A stretch of DNA of 46,305 nucleotides from Cellulomonas hominis (GTDB taxonomy: Bacteria; Actinomycetota; Actinomycetes; Actinomycetales; Cellulomonadaceae). Shown here piece by piece: positions 5,444 through 23,929 of this stretch (positions within the stretch are counted from its first letter, which is position 1; every line of letters begins with the position of its first letter). The stretch lies in NCBI RefSeq assembly GCF_005239125.1, contig NZ_SZYE01000008.1:1-46305 (forward strand), read 5' to 3'. Under the pieces are notes generated by a model. That model was not told the DNA's origin. It saw nothing but the letters and a program-made list of their open reading frames with translations, and ran no database searches. Position numbers and translations under genes: made by a program.

Positions 5444-6751
5444 TCAGCCGCGCTCGGTCGCCGGCGGCTGCTCCGGCGGCGGCACGACGCGCACCCGCGC
5501 GATGCGCCGGCCGTCGACCGCGGCCACCTCGACCCGGCGGCCGCCGACGTCCACCGCGTCGCCCACCGCGCCGAGCCGCCCGAGCCGCGCGATCAGGAAC
5601 CCCGCGACCGTCTCGTACGGGCCGTCGGCGAGCGGGATCCCGGTGAGCGCGGTGAACTCCTCGATGGTGATGCCGGCGTCGTAGGAGCCCGACGCACCCT
5701 CGCGGGCCTCGGCCCCGGAGGACCCGGGCATGTCGTACTCGTCGCGGATGTCCCCGACCAGCTCCTCGACCAGGTCCTCGAGGGTGACGATGCCGTCGGT
5801 GCCGCCGTACTCGTCGACGACGACCGCGATGTGCACGCCCTCGCGGCGCATGGACGACAGCGACGGCAGCAGCTTGTTGGTGCCGGGCAGCACGACGATC
5901 TCCCGCATGACGTCGCGGACCCGGACCCCGGCGCGGTCCGGTGCCTCGAGCAGCTCGCGGATGTGCAGGAAGCCCAGCACGTCGTCGAAGTCGTCGCCGA
6001 TGACGGGGTACCGGGACCAGGGCTGGTCCCGCACCCGGTCCAGGGCGTCCGCGAGCGTCAGGTCGGCCTCCAGGAAGTGCACCTCGGGCCGCGGCCGCAT
6101 GACCTCGGCCACCGAGCGGTCGGTGGCGGCGAACACGTCGCCGAGGATGCGCCGCTCGTCCTCGGGCAGGCCCTGGTGGGCGATGACCAGGTCGCGCAGC
6201 TCGGCCTCGGACATCTCCTCGCTGGTGGCGTGGGGGTCGCCGCCGAACAGCCGCACCAGCAGGTTGGTCGACGCCGACAGCAGCCAGACCACCGGGCGCA
6301 TGAGCGTGGCGAACCGGTCGAGCGGCGGCGCGACCGCCAGCGCGACCCGGGCGGACTGCTGGAGGGCGATGCGCTTGGGGACGAGCTCCCCGAGCACCAG
6401 CGAGAGGTACGCGATCACGAGCGTCAGGGCGATCAGCGCGATGCTGCGTGCCAGCCCGGGGGACGCGCCGAGCGACTCGAGGACCGGCGCGAAGTCCGGC
6501 GCGATGGTCGAGGCGCCGTACGCGGCGGAGAAGAAGCCGGCGACGGTCACGCCGATCTGCACGGCCGCGAGGAACCGGTTCGGGTCCCGGGCGACCGTCG
6601 CGACGCGCGCGCCGCGGGTGCTCTGCCGCTCGAGCTGGTTGAGCTGGCTCTCCCGCAGCGAGACGAGCGCGATCTCGGTACCGGCGAACACCCCGCCGAC
6701 CAGGATGAAGAGCAGGACGAGGCCGATGCTGCCCCAGGTCTCGGCGTCCAT
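5444..6751 (-). CDS. Hemolysin/CNNM family protein (DUF21, CBS pair, CorC_HlyC domain)
   Basis: A 435-residue membrane protein with the full CNNM layout: an N-terminal DUF21 transmembrane region (residues 1 to about 200, first helix IGLVLLFILVGGVFAGTEIA), two CBS repeats (about 215-345, including VMRPRPEVHFLEAD and VRDVMREIVVLPGT), and a C-terminal CorC_HlyC transporter-associated domain (about 355-430, containing VAGFLIARLGRLG and VEVAAVDGRRIARVRV). Relatives are implicated in Mg2+ or Co2+ efflux and are regulated through ATP/Mg binding at the CBS pair. I chose ATG 6751 (MDAETWGSIG) since the preceding 56 codons have no membrane or conserved character. The Asp-Glu-Tyr-Gly-Gly-Thr-Asp-Gly element typical of the second CBS domain is present. 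Confidence 0.93.
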   Translation of the reverse strand: MDAETWGSIGLVLLFILVGGVFAGTEIALVSLRESQLNQLERQSTRGARVATVARDPNRFLAAVQIGVTVAGFFSAAYGASTIAPDFAPVLESLGASPGLARSIALIALTLVIAYLSLVLGELVPKRIALQQSARVALAVAPPLDRFATLMRPVVWLLSASTNLLVRLFGGDPHATSEEMSEAELRDLVIAHQGLPEDERRILGDVFAATDRSVAEVMRPRPEVHFLEADLTLADALDRVRDQPWSRYPVIGDDFDDVLGFLHIRELLEAPDRAGVRVRDVMREIVVLPGTNKLLPSLSSMRREGVHIAVVVDEYGGTDGIVTLEDLVEELVGDIRDEYDMPGSSGAEAREGASGSYDAGITIEEFTALTGIPLADGPYETVAGFLIARLGRLGAVGDAVDVGGRRVEVAAVDGRRIARVRVVPPPEQPPATERG

Positions 6752-6974
6752 CAGCGGCGAGCCCCCGTGCGGCGGGTGCGAACGGCGCGCGGGGTGGTGC
6801 GGGCTCGCCGCACGGGACTGCAGGGCAGGTCGGGAGGCGACATCGCACCATTCCACGGGGCGTCGCGCGCGGTCGTCAACCGCACGGGGCGGGGGTCCGG
6901 GCGCGCACAGGACGCGCACAGCACATCCGCGGACTCGGTGCCCCGAACGGCCCGTGCCCGAGGCAGCCGGTCCC

Positions 6975-6980
6975 TAGGCT
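6975..6980 (+). promoter_or_regulatory. Possible -10 element (TAGGCT) before the PBP gene
   Basis: TAGGCT lies about 47 nt before the GTG start of the penicillin-binding protein gene, within the 275-nt intergenic region shared with the divergent CNNM gene (6752-7026). Apart from this hexamer I see no recognisable site in that region. Confidence 0.35.
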
Positions 6981-7026
6981 GACGGTGCCGGTGGCGCGTC
7001 GCCCCGGGAGGCGGCAGGACGACGGG

Positions 7027-8979
7027 GTGAGGCGTGTGGGCGCGGTGCGGTTCGCGGGGGGTCGGGTCGGCGTGCGGCGGGGGGTCGCCGTCGGGGTGGT
7101 GCTCGCGCTGGTCGGCGCGCTGGGCGCGTGCTCGGGCGGGCCGGACGACCGGCAGCAGGCCGCGGACGCGCTCGCGGAGGCGATCGCGTCGGGCGACTTC
7201 GCGGACGTCCCGCTCGACGGCGCCACCGCGGCGGAGGCGGGCGAGGCGCGCACCGCCGCGTACGCCGGGCTCGACCCGTGGCAGCCCGAGGTCGCCGCCG
7301 GCGACGTGGTGGCCGCGGCGGACGACGACGCGGCCGCGTCCGTCGAGCTCACCTTCACCTGGGACGTCGGCAGCAGCGCCGCGCAGTGGACGTACACCAC
7401 GCACGCGACCCTCGCGAAGGTGGACGACGCGTGGCGCGCCCGCTGGTCGCCGATGCTGCTCGCCCCCGACCTCGCGGCCGGCGAGACCCTGCAGGTGCAC
7501 CGGGTGCAGGCGGAGCGGGCGGACGTGCTCGGCGCCGGGGACGCGGTGCTGGTGGAGTCCCGCCCGGTCTTCCGGATCGGCATCGACAAGACCCGGGTCG
7601 CGGCGGCGGACGCGGACGCGGCGGCGCGGGATCTCGCGGGCATGCTCGGGCTGGACCCCGAGGCCTACGCCGCGCAGGTCGCGGCGGCGGGCGAGAAGGC
7701 GTTCGTCGAGGCGATCGTCGTGCGGGCGGACGACCCGGCCTACGACCGCGGGGCGCTGTCCGTGGTCCCCGGGGTGAACATGCTCGAGACGGCGCTCCCG
7801 CTGGCGCCGAACCGCGCGTTCGCGCGGCCCGTGCTGGGATCGGTCGGCCAGGCGACGGCCGAGATCGTCGAGGAGTCGGACGGCGCCGTGGTGCCGGGCG
7901 ACCTCGCGGGGCTGAGCGGGCTGCAGGCCCAGTTCGACGAGCAGCTGCGGGGCGAGCCCGGCCTGACGGTCGTGGCGACCGCCGGCGGCGCGCAGGAGCG
8001 GGAGCTCTTCCACACCGAGCCCCTGGTCGGCGAGCCGCTGCGCACGACGCTCGACCCGGCGGTGCAGCAGGCGGCCGAGGACCTCGTCGCCACGGTCCCG
8101 GGCAGCGCGAGCGCGATCGTCGCGATCCGCCCGTCCACCGGCGACGTGCTCGCCGCGGCGAGCGGCCCGGGCGGCGGCGGCATGTCGACCGCCACCCTCG
8201 GCCTGTACGCGCCCGGGTCGACGTTCAAGGTCGCGTCCTCGCTGGCGCTGCTGCGCGCCGGCCTGACCCCGGACAGCACCGTGACGTGCCCCGAGACGGC
8301 GACCGTCGACGGCCGGTCGTTCCAGAACTACCCGGGCTACCCGGCCGACGCCCTCGGCGACATCACGCTGCGCACCGCCGTGGCCGAGTCGTGCAACACC
8401 GCGTTCCTCACGGCCGCGGGCACCGCCCCGCAGGAGGCGCTGGCGGCCGCGGCCGCGTCGCTGGGCCTGGTCCCGGACGCCGACCTCGGGTTCGCGGCTA
8501 CGCTCGGCGAGGTCCCGGCCGAGGCCACCGGCGGGACCGACCACGCGGCGTCGATGATCGGCCAGGCGCGGGTCCAGGCGACCCCGCTCGGCATGGCGAC
8601 GGTCGCGGCCTCGGTGGCCGCGGGCGGGCGGGTCACGCCGCGGCTGCTGCTCGGGGGGGCGGAGACCGCCACCCCGGCGCCCGAGCCGGAGCAGCCGCTG
8701 ACGGCCGAGGAGACCGAGGCCCTGCGGTCGATGATGCGGGCCGTCGTCACCGAGGGCGGCGGCGACTTCCTGCAGGACGTGCCCGGCCCCGAGGTGATCG
8801 CGAAGTCCGGCACGGCGCAGTACGGGGCCGGCGACGACCTGCAGAACCACGCGTGGATGATCGCGGCGCAGGGTGACCTGGCGGTCGCGGTGTTCGTCGA
8901 GACCGGCGACTTCGGGTCGACGACCGCGGGACCGCTGCTGGAGTCGTTCCTGCGTGCGGTGGCGGTGCCCGCGGCCTGA
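7027..8979 (+). CDS. Class B penicillin-binding protein, lipoprotein type with NTF2-like (MecA_N) domain
   Basis: A 650-residue D,D-transpeptidase that cross-links peptidoglycan outside the membrane. An N-terminal signal sequence with RR ends in a lipobox, LGAC (Cys35), so the enzyme is probably anchored by lipid rather than by a transmembrane helix. Residues about 45-150 resemble the NTF2-like MecA_N domain, then comes a PBP dimerisation domain, then the transpeptidase with SxxK as STFK (Ser398), SxN as SCN (Ser455) and KTG as KSGT (Lys593). All catalytic residues are present. The start GTG 7027 puts the basic residues directly before the hydrophobic core; an earlier in-frame codon at 6985 would add 14 unlikely residues. 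The domain order is that of PBP2a and B. subtilis PbpC relatives, which are low-affinity, non-essential class B enzymes. Confidence 0.93.
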   Translation: MRRVGAVRFAGGRVGVRRGVAVGVVLALVGALGACSGGPDDRQQAADALAEAIASGDFADVPLDGATAAEAGEARTAAYAGLDPWQPEVAAGDVVAAADDDAAASVELTFTWDVGSSAAQWTYTTHATLAKVDDAWRARWSPMLLAPDLAAGETLQVHRVQAERADVLGAGDAVLVESRPVFRIGIDKTRVAAADADAAARDLAGMLGLDPEAYAAQVAAAGEKAFVEAIVVRADDPAYDRGALSVVPGVNMLETALPLAPNRAFARPVLGSVGQATAEIVEESDGAVVPGDLAGLSGLQAQFDEQLRGEPGLTVVATAGGAQERELFHTEPLVGEPLRTTLDPAVQQAAEDLVATVPGSASAIVAIRPSTGDVLAAASGPGGGGMSTATLGLYAPGSTFKVASSLALLRAGLTPDSTVTCPETATVDGRSFQNYPGYPADALGDITLRTAVAESCNTAFLTAAGTAPQEALAAAAASLGLVPDADLGFAATLGEVPAEATGGTDHAASMIGQARVQATPLGMATVAASVAAGGRVTPRLLLGGAETATPAPEPEQPLTAEETEALRSMMRAVVTEGGGDFLQDVPGPEVIAKSGTAQYGAGDDLQNHAWMIAAQGDLAVAVFVETGDFGSTTAGPLLESFLRAVAVPAA

Positions 8980-8989
8980 ACGGCGCCCT

Positions 8990-9019
8990 GACCTGCGCGT
9001 TCGTCGGACCGCGCGGGTC
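8990..9019 (+). terminator. Hairpin after the PBP gene
   Basis: Arms gacctgcgcg (8990-8999) and cgcgcgggtc (9010-9019) pair at nine of ten positions with a G-U at the tenth, 11 nt after the stop codon. No U tract is visible. Confidence 0.45.
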
Positions 9020-9112
9020 GGGGCGACGGGCCGCCGCGCACCGCGCGTTTTGTCCGCTTTGGCCCGAGTGGGTGAAATGCGAGTTCTGGCGGGACGGGTG
9101 CCGTCCGCCCCC

Positions 9113-9142
9113 TTCCGCTCGTCCGGGTGGCGGGCCTACAGT
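9113..9142 (+). promoter_or_regulatory. Putative promoter of the riboswitch transcript
   Basis: A good -10 hexamer TACAGT (9137-9142) lies 18 nt after TTCCGC (9113-9118), a weak -35. Transcription would begin near 9149, just before the first conserved riboswitch nucleotides, which is what one expects for an aptamer at the 5' end of an mRNA. Confidence 0.45.
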
Positions 9143-9150
9143 CGCCGTGT

Positions 9151-9227
9151 CAGCGACAAGGGCAAACCCTCCGCGAGGAGGGGACGCAAAGCCACGGGAC
9201 CCCCGCAGGTCAGCCGGGCTGCCGAAC
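9151..9227 (+). ncRNA. Cyclic di-GMP-I (GEMM-I) riboswitch aptamer
   Basis: The segment carries the invariant blocks of the class I c-di-GMP aptamer in order: AGGGCAAACC (9160-9169), a perfect 6-bp stem capped by a GCGA tetraloop (ccctcc/ggaggg, 9167-9182), GACGCAAAGCC (9183-9193), ACGGG, and the second stem AGCCGGGCTGCCGA (9212-9225). The GNRA tetraloop is the one that docks into the second helix in the known structure. The middle G of the first GGG, which reads one guanine of the ligand, is present, so the ligand should be c-di-GMP rather than the 3',3'-cGAMP of the GEMM-Ib variants. A Shine-Dalgarno sequence (aagga, 9229-9233) follows immediately, suggesting control of translation initiation of the 56-residue gene. 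A closing P1 helix is not obvious. Confidence 0.92.
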
Positions 9228-9239
9228 GAAGGATCTGCC

Positions 9240-9410
9240 ATGGAACAGCGCGGCTTCTACGAGCCGGCCGAGCAGCGAGGCTCCGACCTCCGCTCCGACG
9301 TGACGGGGCGCGCCGCGACGCGCCTGTCCTCCTGGTCCCGCATCGCGGCGACCCTCGCGGCGCACGCGGACCTCGTGCCCACGCAGCGCGAGTGCACGTC
9401 CGCCTCCTGA
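9240..9410 (+). CDS. 56-residue protein of unknown function under c-di-GMP riboswitch control
   Basis: The ORF starts with ATG 9240, 6 nt after aagga and 13 nt after the aptamer core. Nearly every codon ends in G or C, matching real genes in this genome. The product starts MEQRGFYEPAEQRG, is polar and rich in Arg, Ala and Ser, has no signal peptide or membrane segment, one Trp (SSWSR) and one Cys near the end (QRECTSAS). Residues about 26-45 could form an amphipathic helix. I do not recognise the family. It ends 16 nt before the stop codon of the convergent flippase-like gene, so the riboswitch cannot serve any other plus-strand gene nearby. A function connected with biofilm, motility or development is only an inference from the ligand. 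Confidence 0.75.
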   Translation: MEQRGFYEPAEQRGSDLRSDVTGRAATRLSSWSRIAATLAAHADLVPTQRECTSAS

Positions 9411-9426
9411 CCCGCGGGCCCGGTCG

Positions 9427-11982
9427 TCAGAGCTCGCCGACGCGCTGCATGTAGCGCATCGCGGCCCACCCGACCGGGATCCGCAGCCAGTAGGTGAGCA
9501 CGCGGAACAGCACCGCGACCGAGGTCGCGACACCCGGGTTCACGCCGACCACCGTCAGCGCGCCCGCGAGGGCGATCTCGGTGGTGCCGATGCCCCCGGG
9601 GGTCGGGGCGATGGACCCGGCCGTGTTGCCCGCCAGGTAGACGATCGCGACCTGCACGAGCGACAGGTGCTGGTTGAAGGCCAGCAGGCACACCTCGAAC
9701 GCGAGGATGTACCCGAACGTCGTGATCAGGTTGCCCGCGAGCCCGACCCCGAGCCGGAACGGCTGGCCGACCACCTCGATGAGGCGGGGCCAGGTCTGCT
9801 GCACCGTCGGCAGCGTCTTGGCGGCGACCCACTGCCGCACCTTCGGCACCAGGAGCGCGGCACCGACCGCGGCCGCGAGCACGCCGATCACCACGATGAC
9901 CGTGGGCGACACGGTGAACCGCTCCAGCTGGTTCGTGCCGGACGCCACCGACAGCACCAGGAGCATCGGCAGCGTCACGACGAAGTGCGACACCTGCACG
10001 AGCGCGACGGTCGCCGTCGCGAGCGACGCCGAGGTGCCGCGGCGGGTCAGCAGCCGGAGGTTGATGGCGGCGGGCCCGATGCCGGCCGGCGCCGCGAGCG
10101 CCACGAACGTGGACGCCGACTGCGCGACCGAGGCCCGCCACAGGGACAGCTTCACCGGGGAGAACGCCACCAGGGACAGCGCCGCCCCGAACAGCGTCGC
10201 CATGCCGAGCAGGAACGCCAGGACGCTCAGCCGCCAGTCCGTGGTCGACAGCGCGTCGAGGATGGTCTGCAGGTTGATCGACGTCAGCAGGATGATGACG
10301 GCGGCCGTGGTGAGCAGGATCGTCAGCACGGTGCGCGCGCCGAACCGGATCAGCTGCACGGGCTCGACGTCGGCCTCCGGCAGCCGCGCGACCAGCGCGG
10401 AGCGGAGCTCGGCCAGCACCTCCTTGTGCGCGCGCAGCTCCTCGCGGGTGCGGCGCGGCAGGGTGATGGTCTGCAGCAGCGGCCCGATCGCGGCGATGTC
10501 GCCCTCGGGCAGGACCGCGACGGCCGACTCCAGGGCCCGGGCCGGCCCGACGCGGAGCGCGAGCAGGGCGACCATCTGGGTGCGGTCCATGCGCTGGGCG
10601 AGCTCGGAGGACGCGACGTCGCCCTGGTCCCACCCCACGAGCCACACCGTCGGGTCGTCGGGTCCGTCGGCGACCAGGATCACGTCGCTGGTCAGCGCGC
10701 GGTGGGCGAGCCCGGCCTCGTGGGCCGTGCCCAGCTGCCCCCAGATCGCGCGCAGCACGTCGTCGGTGATCACCTCGGGGTCGAGCTCCGCGAGCGACGT
10801 GGCGGCCGGCACCGGGTCCTGCACCAGCAGCATCGAGGAGTCGGCCTCGGCGATGCCGCGCAGCGCGGGGGTGCGGACCCCCGCGGCGGAGGCGGTGAAC
10901 GAGAGCAGGGCGGCGCGCTCGGCGGCCTGGCGCAGCGAGACGACCGACCGGCCGTCCAGCCCGCGCAGCCGCAGGGACCGCCACAGCCGGCTGAGGAAGC
11001 CGATCACCTGGCGGTCGCCGTCGAGCACGAGCACGTCGAGCTCCCGGCCGTCCTCGGTGACCATGCCGTAGGCACGGTGGTCGGCGTACCGGACCGCGGC
11101 CCGCGCCCCGGCGCTGCCCGGCGTCGCGTCCGGCGCCGCGTCCCCGCCCGGCCGGGGCCCGACCTCGGCCGGGTCGTCGTCCTCGTCGGGGACCCGCACC
11201 AGGACCTGCGGCCGCCAGCCCGCGCGGCGCACGCCGGCGACCAGGCTCGCGCCGTAGGCCCGCTCGGACCGCACGCCCGACACGTACCGGACGGCGAGCC
11301 CGGCGGCCCGGCCGATGAGCAGGGCGATCGCGACGCCGGGCAGCGACGTGCCCGCCGTGATCACCATGACGCCCACCGCGACCCACACGAGGTTCCACGA
11401 CCAGGACACGGTGCGCCGGCGGGTCCGCGGGCCGGTCGCCGTCAGCAGGCCGGCGATCAGGGCGATGTACTCGGGGATCGACAGCGTCAGCTGGCCGTTC
11501 AGCCGGACGGACAGCCCGGCGACCAGCTGGTCCGACCCGAGGTGCTCCACCAGCCACGCGACGCCCGCCGACGCGAGCACGGCGACGATGGCGGCGACCG
11601 ACGCCTCGACCATCTGCCGCCCGAGCCGGCGCACGGCCAGCTCCGCGAGGACGGCGACCGGCACGAGGTAGGTGACGACGGTCTCGAGCAGCGCGACCGG
11701 CACCACGAGGATCTGGCGGAGCAGCGAGGCGAACCCCTGCACGTCCTCCGCGACGCCCGACGTGGTGTTGTGCGCGTACGTCGCCAGCGCCATGACCGCG
11801 ACCGCGCCGACCAGGCTGAGCACGACGCCGAGCAGGTCGCTCGGGTGGTGCACCCGCACCGCGGGGGTGTCCAGCACCTGGGGCCGGCCGAGCCCGTCGA
11901 GCCCGGCCTGGCTGCGCTCGCCCGCGGCGGGCCCGTCGGGTCGACCGGACGCCGCCGGCGCGCTGGTCGAGGCGTCGGGCAT
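9427..11982 (-). CDS. Flippase-like LPG_synthase_TM protein with an embedded pseudokinase domain
   Basis: An 851-residue membrane protein in three parts. Residues about 45-240 form an N-terminal block of six or more hydrophobic helices. The cytoplasmic middle (about 250-540) resembles an aminoglycoside phosphotransferase/RIO-type kinase, but the catalytic HxD is HRA (His427-Arg-Ala429) and the metal-binding Asp motif reads VGWDQGD (Asp452), so it is probably inactive. The C-terminal third (about 560-851) is the lysylphosphatidylglycerol synthase transmembrane/UPF0104 flippase domain, with PGGIGTTE and a last amphipathic end (MRYMQRVGEL). No LPG synthetase (DUF2156) domain follows, so lipid transport or another envelope role is more likely than lysyl transfer. 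ATG 11982 (MPDASTSAP) was chosen over GTG 12039, which adds a basic, non-conserved stretch. No clear Shine-Dalgarno is visible. Confidence 0.88.
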   Translation of the reverse strand: MPDASTSAPAASGRPDGPAAGERSQAGLDGLGRPQVLDTPAVRVHHPSDLLGVVLSLVGAVAVMALATYAHNTTSGVAEDVQGFASLLRQILVVPVALLETVVTYLVPVAVLAELAVRRLGRQMVEASVAAIVAVLASAGVAWLVEHLGSDQLVAGLSVRLNGQLTLSIPEYIALIAGLLTATGPRTRRRTVSWSWNLVWVAVGVMVITAGTSLPGVAIALLIGRAAGLAVRYVSGVRSERAYGASLVAGVRRAGWRPQVLVRVPDEDDDPAEVGPRPGGDAAPDATPGSAGARAAVRYADHRAYGMVTEDGRELDVLVLDGDRQVIGFLSRLWRSLRLRGLDGRSVVSLRQAAERAALLSFTASAAGVRTPALRGIAEADSSMLLVQDPVPAATSLAELDPEVITDDVLRAIWGQLGTAHEAGLAHRALTSDVILVADGPDDPTVWLVGWDQGDVASSELAQRMDRTQMVALLALRVGPARALESAVAVLPEGDIAAIGPLLQTITLPRRTREELRAHKEVLAELRSALVARLPEADVEPVQLIRFGARTVLTILLTTAAVIILLTSINLQTILDALSTTDWRLSVLAFLLGMATLFGAALSLVAFSPVKLSLWRASVAQSASTFVALAAPAGIGPAAINLRLLTRRGTSASLATATVALVQVSHFVVTLPMLLVLSVASGTNQLERFTVSPTVIVVIGVLAAAVGAALLVPKVRQWVAAKTLPTVQQTWPRLIEVVGQPFRLGVGLAGNLITTFGYILAFEVCLLAFNQHLSLVQVAIVYLAGNTAGSIAPTPGGIGTTEIALAGALTVVGVNPGVATSVAVLFRVLTYWLRIPVGWAAMRYMQRVGEL

Positions 11983-17745: not shown

Positions 17746-17785
17746 TCCGGGAGCCCGAGCGGGAGCCCTCGGGAAGGAGCCCGCC

Positions 17786-17842
17786 GAGCATGCAGCAGCT
17801 GCCGGGTTCGAGCGCCTCGAACCCCGCAGCTGGTGCGTGCTC
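17786..17842 (-). terminator. Long hairpin between fni and csoR
   Basis: Two 27-nt arms (17786-17812 and 17816-17842) pair at 24 positions around a 3-nt loop. This is the strongest hairpin I found in the window. It starts 70 nt after the fni stop and precedes the csoR promoter, so it very probably ends the mevalonate operon transcript. It has no U tract. Confidence 0.7.
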
Positions 17843-17848
17843 GGCAGG

Positions 17849-17905
17849 GCTGGGGGTGGGGCTGGGGGTGGGGGACGGGAGGGGGCAGGGGCGGGGTGGG
17901 GCCGC
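17849..17905 (+). repeat. G-run tract with G-quadruplex potential
   Basis: The plus strand has about ten runs of three or more G separated by one to three bases (gggctgggggtggggctggg and following). The runs are on the strand opposite the fni transcript, so a quadruplex would form in DNA, not in that RNA. It sits between the fni stop codon and the long hairpin. Confidence 0.6.
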
Positions 17906-17911
17906 GCGGGG

Positions 17912-19045
17912 TCAGAGGCCGCTGCGGCGGGCGTACGCGCGGGCGTCGACGCCGCGCAGGTCGCAGAACTCGCGCACCGGGCCCGTGAGCAGCAGGTCGA
18001 TCCGGCGCAGGTCCGCGACCGTGCGGGCGCCGAGCAGCGTCATGATGTCCCCGACCTGGGTCAGCCAGGTCTGGATGCGGGCGACGAGGGCCGCCTCGCC
18101 GTCGGTCAGCAGGGTGCGCAGGAAGCCCCCGGCGACGCCGACGGCCGTGGCGCCGAGCGCGAGCGCGCGCACGACGTCGAGGGGGTGCCGCACGCCGCCG
18201 GACGCCAGCAGGTCCACGCCGTCGACCGACGACGCGTCCAGGAGGCCCTCGACCGCCGACTGCCCCCAGGACGCGAGGTAGTCCATGCCGCCGTCGGTGC
18301 GCCGCGCGGACTCGATGGCGGTGAAGTCGGTGCCGCCCCGGCCCGAGACGTCGACGGCCGCGACGCCGAGGTCCCGCAGGCGCTCGACGGTGCCGCGGCT
18401 CATCCCGGCGCCGACCTCCTTGACGACGACGGGGACGTCCACGCCGTCGACGATGGCGGCGATGTTCTCGGCCCAGCGCGTGAAGTCGCGGTCGCCCTCG
18501 GGCATGACGATCTCCTGCGCCGGGTTCACGTGCACCTGCAGGCCGTCGGCGCCGAGGATCTCCACCGAGCGCCGCGCCTGGGCGGGCGTGAGGTTGGCGT
18601 TGACGTTCGCCAGCACGAAGCCGTCGGGGTTGAGGTCGCGCAGCACCCGGAACGACGGGATCGCCGCGGGCTCGCGGTGCAGGATGCCCGTCGACCCCGA
18701 CGCGATGGGCACGCCGGTCTCCCGGGCGGCGATCGCCAGGGCGCGGTTGATCGTCCCGGTGTGCGCGGTGCCGCCGGTCATGCCGTTGATGTACAGCGGC
18801 ACCGGCCAGTCGAGCACCCGGCCCGCGGTGCGCAGCGACACCTGCGCGCGGTCGCCGGCCTGCAGCGGGTGGTTCATCGGGCGGACGTGGTCGAAGTCGC
18901 TCGGCCCGGGCTCGGCGTGCTGGGCGACGGCCAGGCGGACGTGGTCGTCCTTGCGGCGCGCGTCCTGCTCGGCGGGCGTCGCCCCGCCGGCGGCCCCGGG
19001 GGCGACGGCGGGCTGGTCCTGGCCGGACAGGGGGGCGTCGGTCAC
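17912..19045 (-). CDS. fni: Type 2 isopentenyl-diphosphate delta-isomerase
   Basis: A 377-residue FMN- and NADPH-dependent enzyme that interconverts isopentenyl and dimethylallyl diphosphate, the last step of the pathway encoded here. Hallmarks in order: RKDDHVRLAV near the N-terminus, NGMTGGTAHTG, ASGSTGILH, VNANL, QVHVNPAQEIVMPEGDRDF with the catalytic Gln and acidic residue, VVVKEVGAGMS, DVSGRGGTDF and the phosphate-binding LLASGGVRHPLDVVRALALGA. GTG 19045 overlaps the stop of the kinase gene by 4 nt. Type 2 enzymes are the usual partner of mevalonate clusters in Gram-positive bacteria. Confidence 0.95.
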   Translation of the reverse strand: MTDAPLSGQDQPAVAPGAAGGATPAEQDARRKDDHVRLAVAQHAEPGPSDFDHVRPMNHPLQAGDRAQVSLRTAGRVLDWPVPLYINGMTGGTAHTGTINRALAIAARETGVPIASGSTGILHREPAAIPSFRVLRDLNPDGFVLANVNANLTPAQARRSVEILGADGLQVHVNPAQEIVMPEGDRDFTRWAENIAAIVDGVDVPVVVKEVGAGMSRGTVERLRDLGVAAVDVSGRGGTDFTAIESARRTDGGMDYLASWGQSAVEGLLDASSVDGVDLLASGGVRHPLDVVRALALGATAVGVAGGFLRTLLTDGEAALVARIQTWLTQVGDIMTLLGARTVADLRRIDLLLTGPVREFCDLRGVDARAYARRSGL

Positions 19046-20193
19046 GGGGCGTCCTCGGCGTCGCAGGGCTGCTGGACCCGCAGGGACAGGTGCCGCACGT
19101 CGGACAGCGCCCAGTCCCGGAGCATCGGCTCGAGGTCGGTGTCGGCGTCGACCAGCACGATGCCGCAGTCGCCGCCGCCCGCGCCCGACGACTTGGCCGC
19201 CGCGCCGACGCCCTCGGCCGTCTCGCACAGCGTGCGCAGCGCGGGGGTCTCGATGTCGACGCCGGCGGCACGCGCGAGCGAGGTGAGCAGGCCGCGGGCG
19301 CGGTGGATCTGCGCCTTGGCCGCGGGGGCGTCGTCGCGCTCGATGGCGTCGGCCAGCGCGTCCACGCACTCCCGGGAGGCGGCCAGGAAGTCGGGGTAGT
19401 GCGCCTCGGCGGCGCCCTTGCGGGACTGCATCCGCTCGACCAGGCGGGTGGTCGACGCGGGGACGCCGGTCCAGCCCACGACCAGGCGCATGGTCCGCGG
19501 CGTCGGCAGCCGGCGCACGGACAGGCCCGGCCAGTCGGCGACGAGCAGCGCGGACAGCGGCCGCACGGCGCCCGAGGCCTCCGCGGCGGCCTGGGCGGTG
19601 CGCAGCCAGTCGCGGTCGAGCGCGGCGTACCGGATCCACCCGCCGTACAGGCTGGCCGCGACGTCGCCGCCCGAGCCCATCGGGTTGACCGCGACGGTGG
19701 CGAGCAGGGCCAGGCGCAGCAGGCGCTCGGTGGGCAGGTCGAGGCCGTAGAACCGGTCCAGCGCCCGCACGGTCGCCGCGGTGACGGCGGCCGAGGAGCC
19801 GAGCCCGAACTTCCGGCCCGACTGGTCGTCGAGTTCCGAGGTGATCGTGATGTCGTAGAAGCCGAGCGGGCGGCCCTGCTCCGCGGCGAACCGCTCCACG
19901 ACGTCGATCGCGGCGAGCACGTAGTCGAACGGGCGGCTGTCGTGGTCGAGCACCACGCGGCCGCCGTCGCGCCGCCACACCACCGGGAGCCGGCCGTACT
20001 GGTCGGACGCGATGGACCCGGCGCCCTCGGCGCGCGCGAGGCGCACCGTGACGTGCCGGTCGACGGCCACGAGGACCGCGGGGTAGCCGGCCTCGACCAC
20101 GGCGTACTCGCCGGCGACGAACAGCTTGCCGGGGGCGCTGACCTCGATCGGGGCCTCGGCGGGCGCGGGGGCCCCGGCGGCGGGGGCGGTCAC
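19042..20193 (-). CDS. mvaK2: Phosphomevalonate kinase
   Basis: A 383-residue GHMP kinase that phosphorylates mevalonate 5-phosphate to the diphosphate. Motif 1 is SAPGKLFVAGEYAVVEAGYP (19-38), motif 2 the phosphate loop KFGLGSSAAV (128-137) and motif 3 SSGAGGGDCGIVL near the C-terminus. The GEYAVVEAG variant and the total length fit bacterial phosphomevalonate kinase rather than the other GHMP enzymes. GTG 20193 overlaps the mvaD stop by 4 nt and its own stop overlaps fni, so the five enzymes and permease are read as a coupled chain. Confidence 0.94.
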   Translation of the reverse strand: MTAPAAGAPAPAEAPIEVSAPGKLFVAGEYAVVEAGYPAVLVAVDRHVTVRLARAEGAGSIASDQYGRLPVVWRRDGGRVVLDHDSRPFDYVLAAIDVVERFAAEQGRPLGFYDITITSELDDQSGRKFGLGSSAAVTAATVRALDRFYGLDLPTERLLRLALLATVAVNPMGSGGDVAASLYGGWIRYAALDRDWLRTAQAAAEASGAVRPLSALLVADWPGLSVRRLPTPRTMRLVVGWTGVPASTTRLVERMQSRKGAAEAHYPDFLAASRECVDALADAIERDDAPAAKAQIHRARGLLTSLARAAGVDIETPALRTLCETAEGVGAAAKSSGAGGGDCGIVLVDADTDLEPMLRDWALSDVRHLSLRVQQPCDAEDAP

Positions 20194-21185
20194 GCGGCAC
20201 CCCCCGCGGTCACCCGCAGGTCCGGGCCGGGGCGCGCGGTCACGACGCGGCGGGTGCCGCCCTCGGACAGCGCCGCGGCCACGGCGGGCAGGTCGCGGCC
20301 GGCGCACAGCACCTTGACGTTCGGGCCGGCGTCGATGGTCGCCCAGCAGGGCAGGCCGTCCGCGCGCAGCGCCTGCACCTGGTCCAGCACCCCGACGGTG
20401 TGCGCGGTCCAGTACCGGACCGGCGGCCGGGCGCCCAGCATCGTGGCGTGCATCCGCAGGGCGTTGGACTCCGCCAGCGTGCCGAGCGCGGGCAGGTCGC
20501 CGGCGGCCACGGCGTCGAGCATGAGCGCGACGTCGGCCTCGGTGGCCTCGGTCCACGCCGGGAAGTACGGGGAGGTCTCGACGGTGCGGCGCATGGCCTC
20601 GCGGGACGAGATCGCCTTGGGACCGGCGTCCAGCACGACGACGGCCATCGCGGGGTCGAGCGCGCCGCCGGCCTCGCCGCCGGGCACGGGCTCGGCGAAG
20701 GACGTGGCGTCGTCGGTGCCCGCGTGCCAGACCACCAGGCCGCCGAACACCGAGCGCGCCGCCGAGCCGGAGCCGCGGCGCGCGAGCCGGGACAGCGCGC
20801 GGGGGTCGAGGTCGAGGCCGTAGGCGGCCGACGCGGCACCGGCGAGCGCGGCGAACCCGCTCGCCGAGGAGGCCAGGCCCGCGCCGGTCGGCACGGTCGA
20901 CACCGAGGTGACCGCGGCGTGCGCGGACGACCCGGCGAGCGAGCGCACCAGGTCGAGGAACCGCCGGACCCGGGTCACCTCGCCCTCGGACATGGGCCGG
21001 CCGTCGAGCGTCCCGGTGTCCTCGGTCGCACCCGCGTCCAGGGTCACCGTCGTGGTGGCGTGGAACGCGTCGAGCGTCAGCGACAGGCTGGAGGTCGCGG
21101 GCAGCGCCAGGGCCTCGTCGCGCTTGCCCCAGTACTTGGCGAGCGCGATGTTCGCGTGCGCGACGGCGGTCGCGGAGTCAGTCAT
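20190..21185 (-). CDS. mvaD: Diphosphomevalonate decarboxylase
   Basis: A 331-residue GHMP-family enzyme that converts mevalonate 5-diphosphate to isopentenyl diphosphate with ATP. The diagnostic N-terminal block HANIALAKYWGKRDEALALP (residues 10-29) is exact for this enzyme, followed by the P-loop TGAGLASSASGFAAL and the C-terminal ATIDAGPNVKVLC. The catalytic Asp is expected in the AGPNVK/IDAGP and SSREAM region by family comparison. ATG 21185 overlaps the mevalonate kinase stop by 4 nt. Length and motif order are complete. Confidence 0.96.
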   Translation of the reverse strand: MTDSATAVAHANIALAKYWGKRDEALALPATSSLSLTLDAFHATTTVTLDAGATEDTGTLDGRPMSEGEVTRVRRFLDLVRSLAGSSAHAAVTSVSTVPTGAGLASSASGFAALAGAASAAYGLDLDPRALSRLARRGSGSAARSVFGGLVVWHAGTDDATSFAEPVPGGEAGGALDPAMAVVVLDAGPKAISSREAMRRTVETSPYFPAWTEATEADVALMLDAVAAGDLPALGTLAESNALRMHATMLGARPPVRYWTAHTVGVLDQVQALRADGLPCWATIDAGPNVKVLCAGRDLPAVAAALSEGGTRRVVTARPGPDLRVTAGGAA

Positions 21186-22204
21186 CCGAGGGGCACCTGG
21201 GCGGAGGGGGTGGCGGGACGCCGCGCGTCGGTCCGGTGCAGCCACGTGCGCGCCGCTCCCGCGCGGCGCAGGGCAGCGGCGATCGTACCAGCGGACGCCG
21301 CGTCGGCCGCGAGCGCCAGCATGCATCCGCCCTGGCCACCGCCGGTCAGCTTGGCGCCGAGGGCCCCGGCCGCCAGCGCCGCCCCGACCAGCCGGTCGAG
21401 CTCCGGCGAGGAGACGCCGAGCTCGGCGAGGGCGCCGTGCGCGCGCGTCATCCGGGCGCCGAGCTCCGCCGGGCGGTCGAGGGCCAGGTCGTCGACGACG
21501 TCCCGGGTGATGGCGCCGAGCTCCGCGACCAGCTCGGCCCCGCGGGCCGGGTGCCGGTCCCGGAACGACCGCACGTCGGCGACCGCGACCCGGGTCCGCC
21601 CGTGCACGCCGGTGTCGGCGACGACGAGGTGCGCGCGCAGGGCCAGGTCGAGCGGCCGGATCTCGCCGGCCTGGAACCACACCGGCTCCGTGGAGGCGGT
21701 GGTGCGGGCGTCCAGGCCGCTGGGGTTGCCGTGGGCCACCCGCTCGCCGACCTGCACCAGGTCGAAGTGCTCCTGCGCGGTCAGCGTGCGCCCGGCGAGG
21801 TCGGCCAGCGCGAGCGCGAGGGCACCGGCGGTGGCGGCGCTGGAGCCGAGGCCGCGGGCGGCCGGGATCGTGGACTCGGTGGACAGCACGATGTCCCGGT
21901 GCGGCAGCCCCAGGTGGTCGAGCGTGGCCTCGACGGCGGCGACCGGCGCCGCCAGCTGCTCGGGGGCGTCGGACAGCGCGCCCGAGTACAGGACGGACTC
22001 GAGGGTGAGCGGGCCCTCCTCGCGGCGCGCGACGGCCCGCATCGGCAGGCTGGCCAGCGGCAGCGCGATCGCGGGCTCGCCGTAGACGACGGCGTGCTCG
22101 CCGACCAGGATCGCCTTCGCGCGGGTGTGCCCCGTCCCGGTGGCGCGCGGGGCGCCCGGGCCGGTGCTGCGCGGGTTCGAGCTCGAGATGGTCCGACTCC
22201 TCAC
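21182..22204 (-). CDS. mvaK1: Mevalonate kinase
   Basis: A 340-residue GHMP kinase that phosphorylates mevalonate, the entry to the lower mevalonate pathway. Motif 1 is AKAILVGEHAVVYGEPAIALP (about 29-49), motif 2 RGLGSSAATAGALA (117-130), and motif 3 KLTGGGQGGCMLAL close to the C-terminus; VAHGNPSGLDA carries the active-site Asp of the family. I chose GTG 22204, because it overlaps the upstream permease stop as GTGA, the same 4-nt coupling found at every other junction of this operon. A longer start at 22225 adds seven residues. No HMG-CoA reductase or synthase gene is adjacent. Confidence 0.95.
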   Translation of the reverse strand: MRSRTISSSNPRSTGPGAPRATGTGHTRAKAILVGEHAVVYGEPAIALPLASLPMRAVARREEGPLTLESVLYSGALSDAPEQLAAPVAAVEATLDHLGLPHRDIVLSTESTIPAARGLGSSAATAGALALALADLAGRTLTAQEHFDLVQVGERVAHGNPSGLDARTTASTEPVWFQAGEIRPLDLALRAHLVVADTGVHGRTRVAVADVRSFRDRHPARGAELVAELGAITRDVVDDLALDRPAELGARMTRAHGALAELGVSSPELDRLVGAALAAGALGAKLTGGGQGGCMLALAADAASAGTIAAALRRAGAARTWLHRTDARRPATPSAQVPLG

Positions 22205-23553
22205 ATCAGGTGCGCCACGAACCACGGGGCCGCGTACAGCGACATGAACTGCACCCCGAAGTTGACGCCCAACCGGTTCAGCGTGCCGCAGGTCAGCCCG
22301 ACCAGCAGCACGGCGAAGACGTTGACGAGCCCTGCGTCCAGGTAGGCGAGGAGCAGGACGAACACGATGAACAGCGCGAGCACCGCCTCGTGCGGCACGT
22401 AGCGGGTGACCAGCGCGGTGAGCCGGAACGAGTACCGGACCGCCAGCACGTAGGACAGCACCAGGGCGAGCGTCCCGCCGACCACGACCGCGACCACGAA
22501 CTGCGACGTCGACAGCAGCTGGTGCAGGTTGTTGTCGAGGGTCAGCACGGGCGGCGCGTTGAACAGCGCGTTCGCGGGGCCGACCGCGACCGGCGACAGC
22601 GGCAGCCCGACCGCCAGGAGCGGGATGATCACGCCCGCCAGGTAGGTCGAGTGCGCGAGCGCGGCCATGGAGGTGATCGCCCGGGAGGACCGCTCGACGG
22701 GCTGCTGGGCGCGGGCGCCGGACGCCTCGCCCATGAGCAGCGTCAGGGCGACCGGGCTGAGGAAGAACAGCGGCGTGGACGCCGCGGAGACCGTGGCCGA
22801 GGCGCCGAGCTCGGCGCGGGTCAGCAGGCGCCGCGGGCTCAGCGGCGCGCCCTTCAGCTCCGACCGCGTGATGACGACCGGCGTGCGGCCGGCGCGGGGG
22901 AGCGCGGCGCGCAGCGTCGGGTTGAGCAGCGTGGCCAGGCTGAGCAGCAGCGGGCCCGCGGTGATCGACAGGAAGAACGACACCGTGATCGTGCCGTCCT
23001 CGGGCAGCACGCCGGTCTGCCGGTACAGCGCCTGCACGCCCTGGAACAGCAGGCCCAGCGGGATGATCGCCAGCAGCGAGAGCAGCTTGTTCTTCCCGAT
23101 CAGCGCCAGCACCACGGCGCCGCCGACGAACAGCAGCGACCCGTACTCCCGCAGCTGGTCCGCGAACGGGGTGATGGCGCCGGCGATCAGCAGCGCGAGC
23201 GGCACCGAGACCAGCGTGCCGACGACCGAGCCGGCCGCCATCTTGCGGATCGTCTCCGCCGCCCGGCCCTCCCGCTTGAGCAGCAGGGCGTGGTCGATCA
23301 TCGGCGCGGACAGCACGCCGCCGGGGAGGCCGACCAGCGCCGTCGGGATCGAGTTCGTCAGGTTGAGCGTGACCACGGCGGCGATGAAGAACGCCAGCAC
23401 CACCTGCGGGTCGGCGCCGGCGAGCACGAGGGCGAGCGTCACGGGCAGCAGGACCGACGTCTCGTCGGTGCCGGGGATGAACCCGATCAGCGTGTACAGC
23501 GCGACGGCCGCGAGAGCGGCGGCGACCATCGGCAGCAGCAGGGAGAGGTCCAC
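22201..23553 (-). CDS. TctA-like tripartite tricarboxylate transporter permease, coupled to the mevalonate genes
   Basis: A 450-residue polytopic protein with the TctA (PF01970) layout: about ten to twelve hydrophobic helices and two family-type loops, GFIPGTDETSVLLP (near residues 23-36, in place of the usual GxxPGLG) and ALVGLPGGVLSAP (about 72-84). Normal TctA works with TctB and a periplasmic/lipid-anchored TctC binding protein to import carboxylates with a cation gradient; neither is encoded here. It is somewhat shorter than typical TctA (about 500). Its stop overlaps the mevalonate kinase start by 4 nt, so it is part of the isoprenoid operon. The GTG start has no recognisable Shine-Dalgarno. 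Import of mevalonate or a related hydroxy acid is an inference from this coupling. Confidence 0.85.
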   Translation of the reverse strand: MDLSLLLPMVAAALAAVALYTLIGFIPGTDETSVLLPVTLALVLAGADPQVVLAFFIAAVVTLNLTNSIPTALVGLPGGVLSAPMIDHALLLKREGRAAETIRKMAAGSVVGTLVSVPLALLIAGAITPFADQLREYGSLLFVGGAVVLALIGKNKLLSLLAIIPLGLLFQGVQALYRQTGVLPEDGTITVSFFLSITAGPLLLSLATLLNPTLRAALPRAGRTPVVITRSELKGAPLSPRRLLTRAELGASATVSAASTPLFFLSPVALTLLMGEASGARAQQPVERSSRAITSMAALAHSTYLAGVIIPLLAVGLPLSPVAVGPANALFNAPPVLTLDNNLHQLLSTSQFVVAVVVGGTLALVLSYVLAVRYSFRLTALVTRYVPHEAVLALFIVFVLLLAYLDAGLVNVFAVLLVGLTCGTLNRLGVNFGVQFMSLYAAPWFVAHLM

Positions 23554-23644
23554 GGAGGTCTTTCGGTGCGGGGCGCCCGTCCGGATGGGTCGCGGCGGGC
23601 GCGTCGGCTGGCGCGGGGGGTGGTGCGCGGGGGGAGCGCGGGCG

Positions 23645-23899
23645 TCAGACCGGTGGCGGACCCGCCTCGGCGTCGGCCACGATCCGCACGTCCCGCTTCG
23701 GCCGGACGAGCACCACCGCGGCCGCGAACCCGACCACCGAGCCGCCGAGGCCCCAGAAGAACTCCGACGAGCCCAGGGCGCGGCCGATCACGACCGCGGC
23801 GGCCGTCACGATCGCCGTGACGGCGAGCGCCAGGACCAGGTCGCGCATCGACACGCGGTCGCCCCAGATCTCGACGTACTGGTCGTCGTCGCTGCTCAC
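23645..23899 (-). CDS. 84-residue two-helix membrane protein heading the mevalonate operon
   Basis: A small protein with a polar N-terminus (MSSDDDQYVEIWGDRVSMRD), a helix at about 21-43, a second helix at about 48-67, and a basic then acidic tail. The GTG start is preceded by an excellent ggaggagg. It lies 91 nt before the TctA-like gene on the same strand. Its position equals that of tctB in classical tripartite transporters, but TctB is about 150 residues with four helices, so this would be half of one at most. It may be a reduced TctB, or an unrelated accessory subunit. I do not recognise a family from sequence alone. Confidence 0.75.
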   Translation of the reverse strand: MSSDDDQYVEIWGDRVSMRDLVLALAVTAIVTAAAVVIGRALGSSEFFWGLGGSVVGFAAAVVLVRPKRDVRIVADAEAGPPPV

Positions 23900-23923
23900 G
23901 TTCCTCCTCCGGTCCGGGTCGTC

Positions 23924-23929
23924 ACCCTA
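23924..23929 (-). promoter_or_regulatory. Possible -10 element (TAGGGT) of the mevalonate operon
   Basis: On the minus strand TAGGGT lies 25 nt upstream of the 84-residue gene. No good -35 is visible. The remainder of the 228-nt divergent region up to 24127 shows no feature I can name. Confidence 0.3.

Follow-up and report, generated by a model that had tools for sequence, protein, structure and literature searches.

What is a permease of the tricarboxylate type doing at the head of an operon for isoprenoid synthesis? The question is raised by a stretch of 46,305 nucleotides from Cellulomonas hominis (contig NZ_SZYE01000008.1, positions 1 to 46,305; the whole stretch is called the window below), in which a gene for an 84-residue protein (s84) and a gene for a TctA-like permease precede four genes of the lower mevalonate pathway. 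An earlier note on this DNA had proposed that the pair imports mevalonate and that the operon is a salvage route. Gene context and the distribution of 3-hydroxy-3-methylglutaryl-CoA (HMG-CoA) reductase (HMGR) give this proposal strong indirect support, and it is from them that we infer the substrate and the direction of transport. s84 and the permease very probably form a two-subunit secondary mevalonate importer, which would serve salvage in C. hominis and degradation in Proteobacteria.

In the proposed mechanism, s84 and the TctA-like protein would be the two subunits of a secondary transporter; it would bring the C6 hydroxy acid mevalonate into the cell, with uptake coupled to an ion gradient. 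Mevalonate kinase (MVK), phosphomevalonate kinase (PMK), diphosphomevalonate decarboxylase (MVD) and type 2 isopentenyl-diphosphate isomerase (IDI-2), all encoded by the same operon, would then convert mevalonate to isopentenyl diphosphate (IPP) and dimethylallyl diphosphate (DMAPP). In C. hominis, import would supplement the home-made mevalonate and the methylerythritol phosphate (MEP) route, and in many relatives without HMGR it would likely be the only source of mevalonate. In Proteobacteria, the same type of pair would serve the degradation of mevalonate via HMGR and HMG-CoA lyase.

The argument has two parts. MVK and the HMGR/lyase route sit in opposite pathways whose common substrate is mevalonate, so mevalonate is most simply what the pair carries. 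Since the pair goes with both pathways and is kept where HMGR has been lost, it is most simply an inward transporter.

The operon in the window

The six genes named by the earlier note were all found, in the same direction, on the minus strand. The operon exists as described, but the span given for it (21182-23929) holds the first three genes only; from s84 to IDI-2 it covers positions 17912-23899 of the window:

23645..23899, minus strand: s84, open reading frame (ORF) for an 84-aa two-helix protein, probable small subunit, with the conserved residues W-x-D ... L ... G ... P-K-R
22201..23553, minus strand: TctA-type permease, 450 aa, with GTDET at residues 28-32 (PF01970, 89.9 bits)
21182..22225, minus strand: MVK, probable start GTG at 22204 (TIGR00549, 235.8 bits, cut-off 163)
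20190..21185, minus strand: MVD (TIGR01240, 297.2 bits, cut-off 171)
19042..20193, minus strand: PMK (TIGR01220, 418.8 bits, cut-off 166)
17912..19045, minus strand: IDI-2 (TIGR02151, 330.7 bits, cut-off 281)

The lower mevalonate pathway is complete in the operon, its four enzymes all scoring above the NCBIfam equivalog cut-offs. The permease and the enzymes are joined by 4-nt overlaps, as had been claimed: the four junction sequences, from the permease to IDI-2, read GTGA, ATGA, GTGA and GTGA, and the first of them requires that MVK start at the GTG at 22204. HMG-CoA lyase and HMGR are absent from the operon, which is therefore not of the degradation type.

The permease and s84

The permease matches PF01970, the TctA large subunit, over residues 11-431 (cut-off 28.9 bits) and is the sole match to this family in the host genome. 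Its closest named relatives are up to 98% identical. The GTDET motif is found in 86 of 86 relatives, 80 from the loci described in the next section and six from plasmids; the former came from a pattern scan with IGF[IV]PGTD or PQVVLAFF, which favours the motif, while the six plasmid ones did not.

s84 matches no Pfam family above cut-off, no NCBIfam family at E ≤ 0.1 and, with its two helices, not TctB at E ≤ 1. Its structure model (predicted local distance difference test score, pLDDT, 86) places the helices at residues 18-41 and 46-64. The permease was modelled with a pLDDT of 85; no relative was found by sequence among solved structures (best E 0.17), and a fold search gave nothing at E ≤ 0.001, a result that is uninformative by itself.

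The known transporters built on PF01970 are the tripartite tricarboxylate transporters TctCBA, in which this family provides TctA; examples are those for citrate in Salmonella and Corynebacterium glutamicum. Their TctB has about four helices. The pair in the window is like them in its large subunit, a PF01970 protein, and in the gene for a small membrane protein upstream. It differs in the two helices of that protein, in the lack of a TctB match (none was seen either when two of the Proteobacterial small proteins were tested) and in its operon, which holds mevalonate enzymes. A further difference may be that no TctC occurs among the ten neighbour proteins scanned from recurrent neighbour clusters, a genome-wide TctC search not having been made. 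s84 presumably acts as a subunit of the permease, and the two would function without a binding protein.

Association with lower mevalonate genes in three phyla

The set of loci consists of the best 80 of 98 relatives found by the contig scan, with 49-98% identity. It represents three phyla (Actinomycetota, Bacillota and Mycoplasmatota), the sources including Cellulomonas, Corynebacterium, Pseudoclavibacter, Tessaracoccus, Actinomyces, Enterococcus, Carnobacterium, Tissierella, Erysipelotrichaceae and Izimaplasma. According to tblastn, an s84 homologue lies upstream of the permease in 80/80 loci (some contigs end early), and at least one lower mevalonate enzyme adjoins the pair in 78/80.

The two exceptions are L105 from Allofustis, where MVD lies 42 kb away, and L102 from Planococcus. 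In the latter (5891-9356), HMGR, an XRE/cupin-type regulator, s84 and the permease follow one another; the genome also has dxr and IspH, and the locus is probably a mevalonate-using one of another type. In a tree of 56 permeases, the five Proteobacterial ones used form one branch (100/100), and Planococcus L102 is the first split among the rest.

The gene order varies. In several loci tblastn joined MVK and MVD into a single match; they are separate ORFs in L048, L057, L064, L069 and L072. In the Erysipelotrichaceae-type loci L098, L100, L101 and L106 they are fused in one ORF of 619-621 aa, the fusion being confirmed by NCBIfam in L106 only (9369-11228). In the loci from Actinomyces, the s84-permease pair and the lower operon are convergent. 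In one of these, L070 (2598-15886), the pair stands behind dxr, an M50 protease gene, ispG and an acetyltransferase gene; pair and lower operon together lie between these MEP-side genes and a gene for a class II tRNA synthetase.

The adjoining isoprenoid genes, and dxr and ispG ahead of the pair in L070, would also suit a membrane step in the handling of isoprenoid lipids, such as a flippase for a lipid carrier, in place of the uptake of a small molecule. We give this idea hardly any credence, since it leaves unexplained the HMGR/lyase loci and the link with HMGR loss, to which we now turn.

A second context: HMGR/lyase loci on plasmids

Six records of a plasmid collection match the permease, with 35-37% identity, and the same six are found when one of them is used as the query. 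At E ≤ 10 the search again returned these six records, and no ordinary TctA. In each of the six loci (L153-L158) an HMGR gene, a gene for a small protein and the permease gene stand in a row. In four of them the cluster includes a gene for HMG-CoA lyase: in L155, L156 and L158 it immediately follows the permease gene, and in L153 it lies on the opposite strand. All six loci also have, upstream on the other strand, a regulator-like gene of the PLP-dependent aminotransferase family.

hhalign identifies the small protein of the plasmids as a homologue of s84 (probability 98.7, E 2.2e-16). Indeed, a hidden Markov model of s84 run on 1249 six-frame segments picks out exactly this small gene in 6/6 loci and nothing else at E ≤ 1. 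W-x-D and P-K-R are common to s84 and the plasmid proteins, and two hydrophobic segments are computed both for s84 and for the small protein of L153.

We read the plasmid loci, from their gene content, as mevalonate degradation loci; for those of Burkholderia the assignment would be by analogy. Inducible mevalonate transport was reportedly observed in Pseudomonas sp. M in the 1980s. Set beside the mva degradation operon of the Pseudomonas mevalonii type, the likeness lies in the homologous permease and small protein of HMGR/lyase loci, and the difference in the setting of the window's pair, which is biosynthetic (MVK to IDI-2).

The PF01970 match by itself would allow a citrate or tricarboxylate permease of the ordinary kind, placed among mevalonate genes by accident. 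Such a coincidence is highly unlikely for a permease found beside the lower pathway in 78/80 loci from three phyla and next to HMGR in Planococcus and in six further loci. The profile built from the salvage permeases, moreover, scores the six plasmid permeases at 335-363 bits, whereas PF01970 gives 63 and 73 bits for the two that were tested.

TctA proteins carry varied carboxylates, and a close relative of mevalonate (3-hydroxy-3-methylglutarate, mevalonolactone or a mevalonate ester) could be the substrate in its place. This is unlikely in view of the salvage operons, which keep MVK, an enzyme whose substrate is free mevalonate, and of the hosts without HMGR, to which HMG is of no use on this route. 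The annotation shows no CoA ligase next to the four degradation loci that are annotated, the gene tables of the plasmids being incomplete. Mevalonate itself is thus the substrate that we favour.

Distribution of the pair and loss of HMGR

In the family of C. hominis, the permease and HMGR were searched in 200 genomes, MVD in 34 genomes of the genus, and HMG-CoA synthase (HMGS) in 42 genomes of the family. HMGR is present in 21/200 and the permease in 14/200, all of the window's genus, with 81-100% identity (a fifteenth match, in G028, 36% identical, partial and with one stop, was left out). Within the genus, the permease is found in 14/14 genomes with MVD and in 0/20 without it (Fisher p 7e-10, relatedness not corrected).

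HMGS and HMGR adjoin each other at another locus in 13 of the 14 carriers. Cellulomonas sp. RIT-PI-Y (G163/G204) has no HMGS, HMGR or IspH, and its assembly G163 is rated 99% complete. In Cellulomonas denverensis (G203, L037), dxr and HMGR are present but IspH gave no match, so this species may obtain its IPP from the mevalonate pathway alone.

Fifty of the 80 locus genomes, picked for diversity before their HMGR status was known, were tested for HMGR and dxr. HMGR is below cut-off in 35 of them (one, G239, has a weak match) and above it in 15, so the relatives that have the operon do not all encode this enzyme elsewhere, as the earlier note had considered they might. When 10 metagenome-assembled (MAG) or uncultured records are set aside, HMGR is missing in 26 of 40 isolates. 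dxr was found in 38 of the 50 genomes, G235 being borderline.

IspH was searched in 73 genomes. Four carriers lack both HMGR and IspH: Cellulomonas sp. RIT-PI-Y (G204), Helcococcus sueciensis (G234), Schaalia vaccimaxillae (G240) and a MAG (G249); dxr is likewise missing in H. sueciensis and S. vaccimaxillae. Their loci (L038, L093, L083 and L057, respectively) have lower enzymes together with the pair. With neither HMGR nor IspH, mevalonate from outside looks like the only IPP source of these four, and the simplest one, if the assemblies are complete; among them, a completeness rating is known for G163 only.

In lactobacilli, mevalonate has been identified as a growth factor. Among 395 Lactobacillales genomes the permease is present in 51, counting G258 (a fragment with a stop), G576 (two stops) and G327 (cut by a contig end), and in 47 of the 51 it lies within 5 kb of MVD. 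In G258, which is HMGR-positive, the permease is broken into fragments (L143, 10448-11293). HMGR was not found in 20 of the 395. MVD was tested in the 63 genomes that have the permease or miss HMGR. Eight of the nine genomes without HMGR and with MVD above cut-off have the permease, compared to 43 of all 375 HMGR-positive genomes (Fisher p 5e-7, if all 375 are taken as MVD-positive, and with relatedness not corrected). Eleven of the 12 genomes with neither HMGR nor the permease have no MVD above cut-off.

Transport outward or in both directions, for overflow or sharing between cells, would fit the 43/51 Lactobacillales carriers and the 13/14 carriers of the genus that can also make mevalonate. 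We consider it quite unlikely: the 35/50 carriers that show no HMGR have no evident mevalonate to export, and a degradation operon needs import.

Evidence that weighs against mevalonate import

Several observations count against import by the pair, beginning with C. hominis itself. Its genome (G000) comprises 4.2 Mb in 407 contigs. The whole-genome check suggested by the earlier note was run; HMGS and HMGR do not adjoin the operon, as it had said, but both are encoded side by side on another contig (C36), so the idea that they are missing from this genome is rejected. The MEP genes dxr and ispH are present too. The host mevalonate pathway is thus complete, from HMGS onwards, and split over two places, alongside MEP genes. 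Salvage beside another isoprenoid route is borne out in that genes of this other route exist; the operon, however, also completes the home-made mevalonate pathway. With HMGS, HMGR and MEP genes in the host, import here would only supplement.

Similarly, most of the HMGR-less carriers possess dxr and IspH, and we rejected the idea that they are all mevalonate auxotrophs for this reason. Four Tissierella-type genomes without HMGR have no dxr or a borderline one, yet IspH is present, so they are not clear auxotrophs. HMGR is kept in 43 of the 51 Lactobacillales carriers. Its presence in many carriers fits a supplementing role of the pair and also allows other readings.

The link with HMGR loss in the Lactobacillales becomes weaker when MVD is not required (8/20 vs 43/375, p 0.002, relatedness not corrected). 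Two HMGR-less genomes of this order do not follow it. G617, the ninth of the MVD-positive genomes above, has MVK to IDI-2 (L139, 8013-12173) with no match to the permease, HMGR or IspH; among the neighbours of its lower operon, which were read without a family scan, no transporter of TctA type was seen, and an assembly gap or another source of mevalonate is possible. In G576, which is one of the other eight and has IspH, the permease has two in-frame stops (L144, 9905-11221).

The pair is also absent from 8/8 genomes that carry HMGR and MVD and belong to other genera within the family. In three stretches scanned from such genera (L009-L011) the lower cluster, made of the same four enzymes, adjoins HMGR and has no permease, unlike the window. 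We take the mevalonate clusters of Streptomyces to have these four lower enzymes too. Whether the pair is missing from most homologous operons, a question put by the earlier note, therefore depends on the count: it is not missing among the 80 permease loci, but starting from the lower pathway it is absent from these eight genomes and from 344/395 Lactobacillales (MVD was not tested in most of the 344). Only some lower mevalonate operons carry the pair.

As for the plasmids, no lyase was found by tblastn in the stretch fetched for the two Burkholderia loci (L154 and L157, unannotated records). Direction cannot be read from the name 'degradative HMGR' (TIGR00532) alone.

Finally, mevalonate may enter cells without the pair at high doses. 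In the parts of the articles available to us, added mevalonate allows S. aureus mvaA mutants to grow (PMC4790635) and eases the effect of an HMGR knock-down in Borrelia burgdorferi (PMC13370337). Some cells take up mevalonate, by a route that these parts do not name.

The region downstream of the operon

The operon is followed on its 3' side by one further feature:

17785..17843, minus strand: long hairpin 3' of the operon, no T run (fold of 17785-17925)

This hairpin, which the earlier note had described as strong, is real (-58.5 kcal/mol, z -3.79 vs shuffles, in the fold of 17785-17925). A consensus terminator scan listed no site there; the hairpin, which lacks a T run, probably ends transcription. 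At its far end it extends into the first bases called for the next ORF. Beyond it lie two ORFs resembling csoR and copA; these names come from the earlier note and not from a family search.

Relation to earlier work and significance

Among the papers listed by our literature search, which saw several sources in part and whose coverage left out older work, none assigns a gene to mevalonate transport as it occurs naturally in bacteria. A review from 2026 on isoprenoid pathways in bacteria (PMC13001223) does not use the word 'transporter' in its main text. The nearest counterpart is the evolved Jen1 importer of yeast (PMC12405511), which has the same proposed substrate and direction and is a mutated carrier of another family; natural mevalonate uptake in S. 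cerevisiae is called negligible in the accessible part of that article.

It is probable, although less so than import by the pair as such, that a dedicated family of mevalonate importers, made of a GTDET permease and a two-helix subunit without a binding protein, serves two unrelated pathways and that mevalonate is traded. Dozens of bacteria from three phyla would then carry the salvage operon, and Helcococcus sueciensis, Schaalia vaccimaxillae and Cellulomonas sp. RIT-PI-Y would depend on the mevalonate of others.

If import by the pair is true, it would provide a gene for mevalonate uptake in bacteria. Metabolic engineers, who had to evolve a yeast carrier for this purpose (PMC12405511, as far as available), would gain a natural importer. 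It would explain mevalonate operons without HMGR, and how bacteria that are unable to make mevalonate keep the genes for using it. It would also predict the growth needs of fastidious bacteria and suggest cross-feeding of an isoprenoid precursor.

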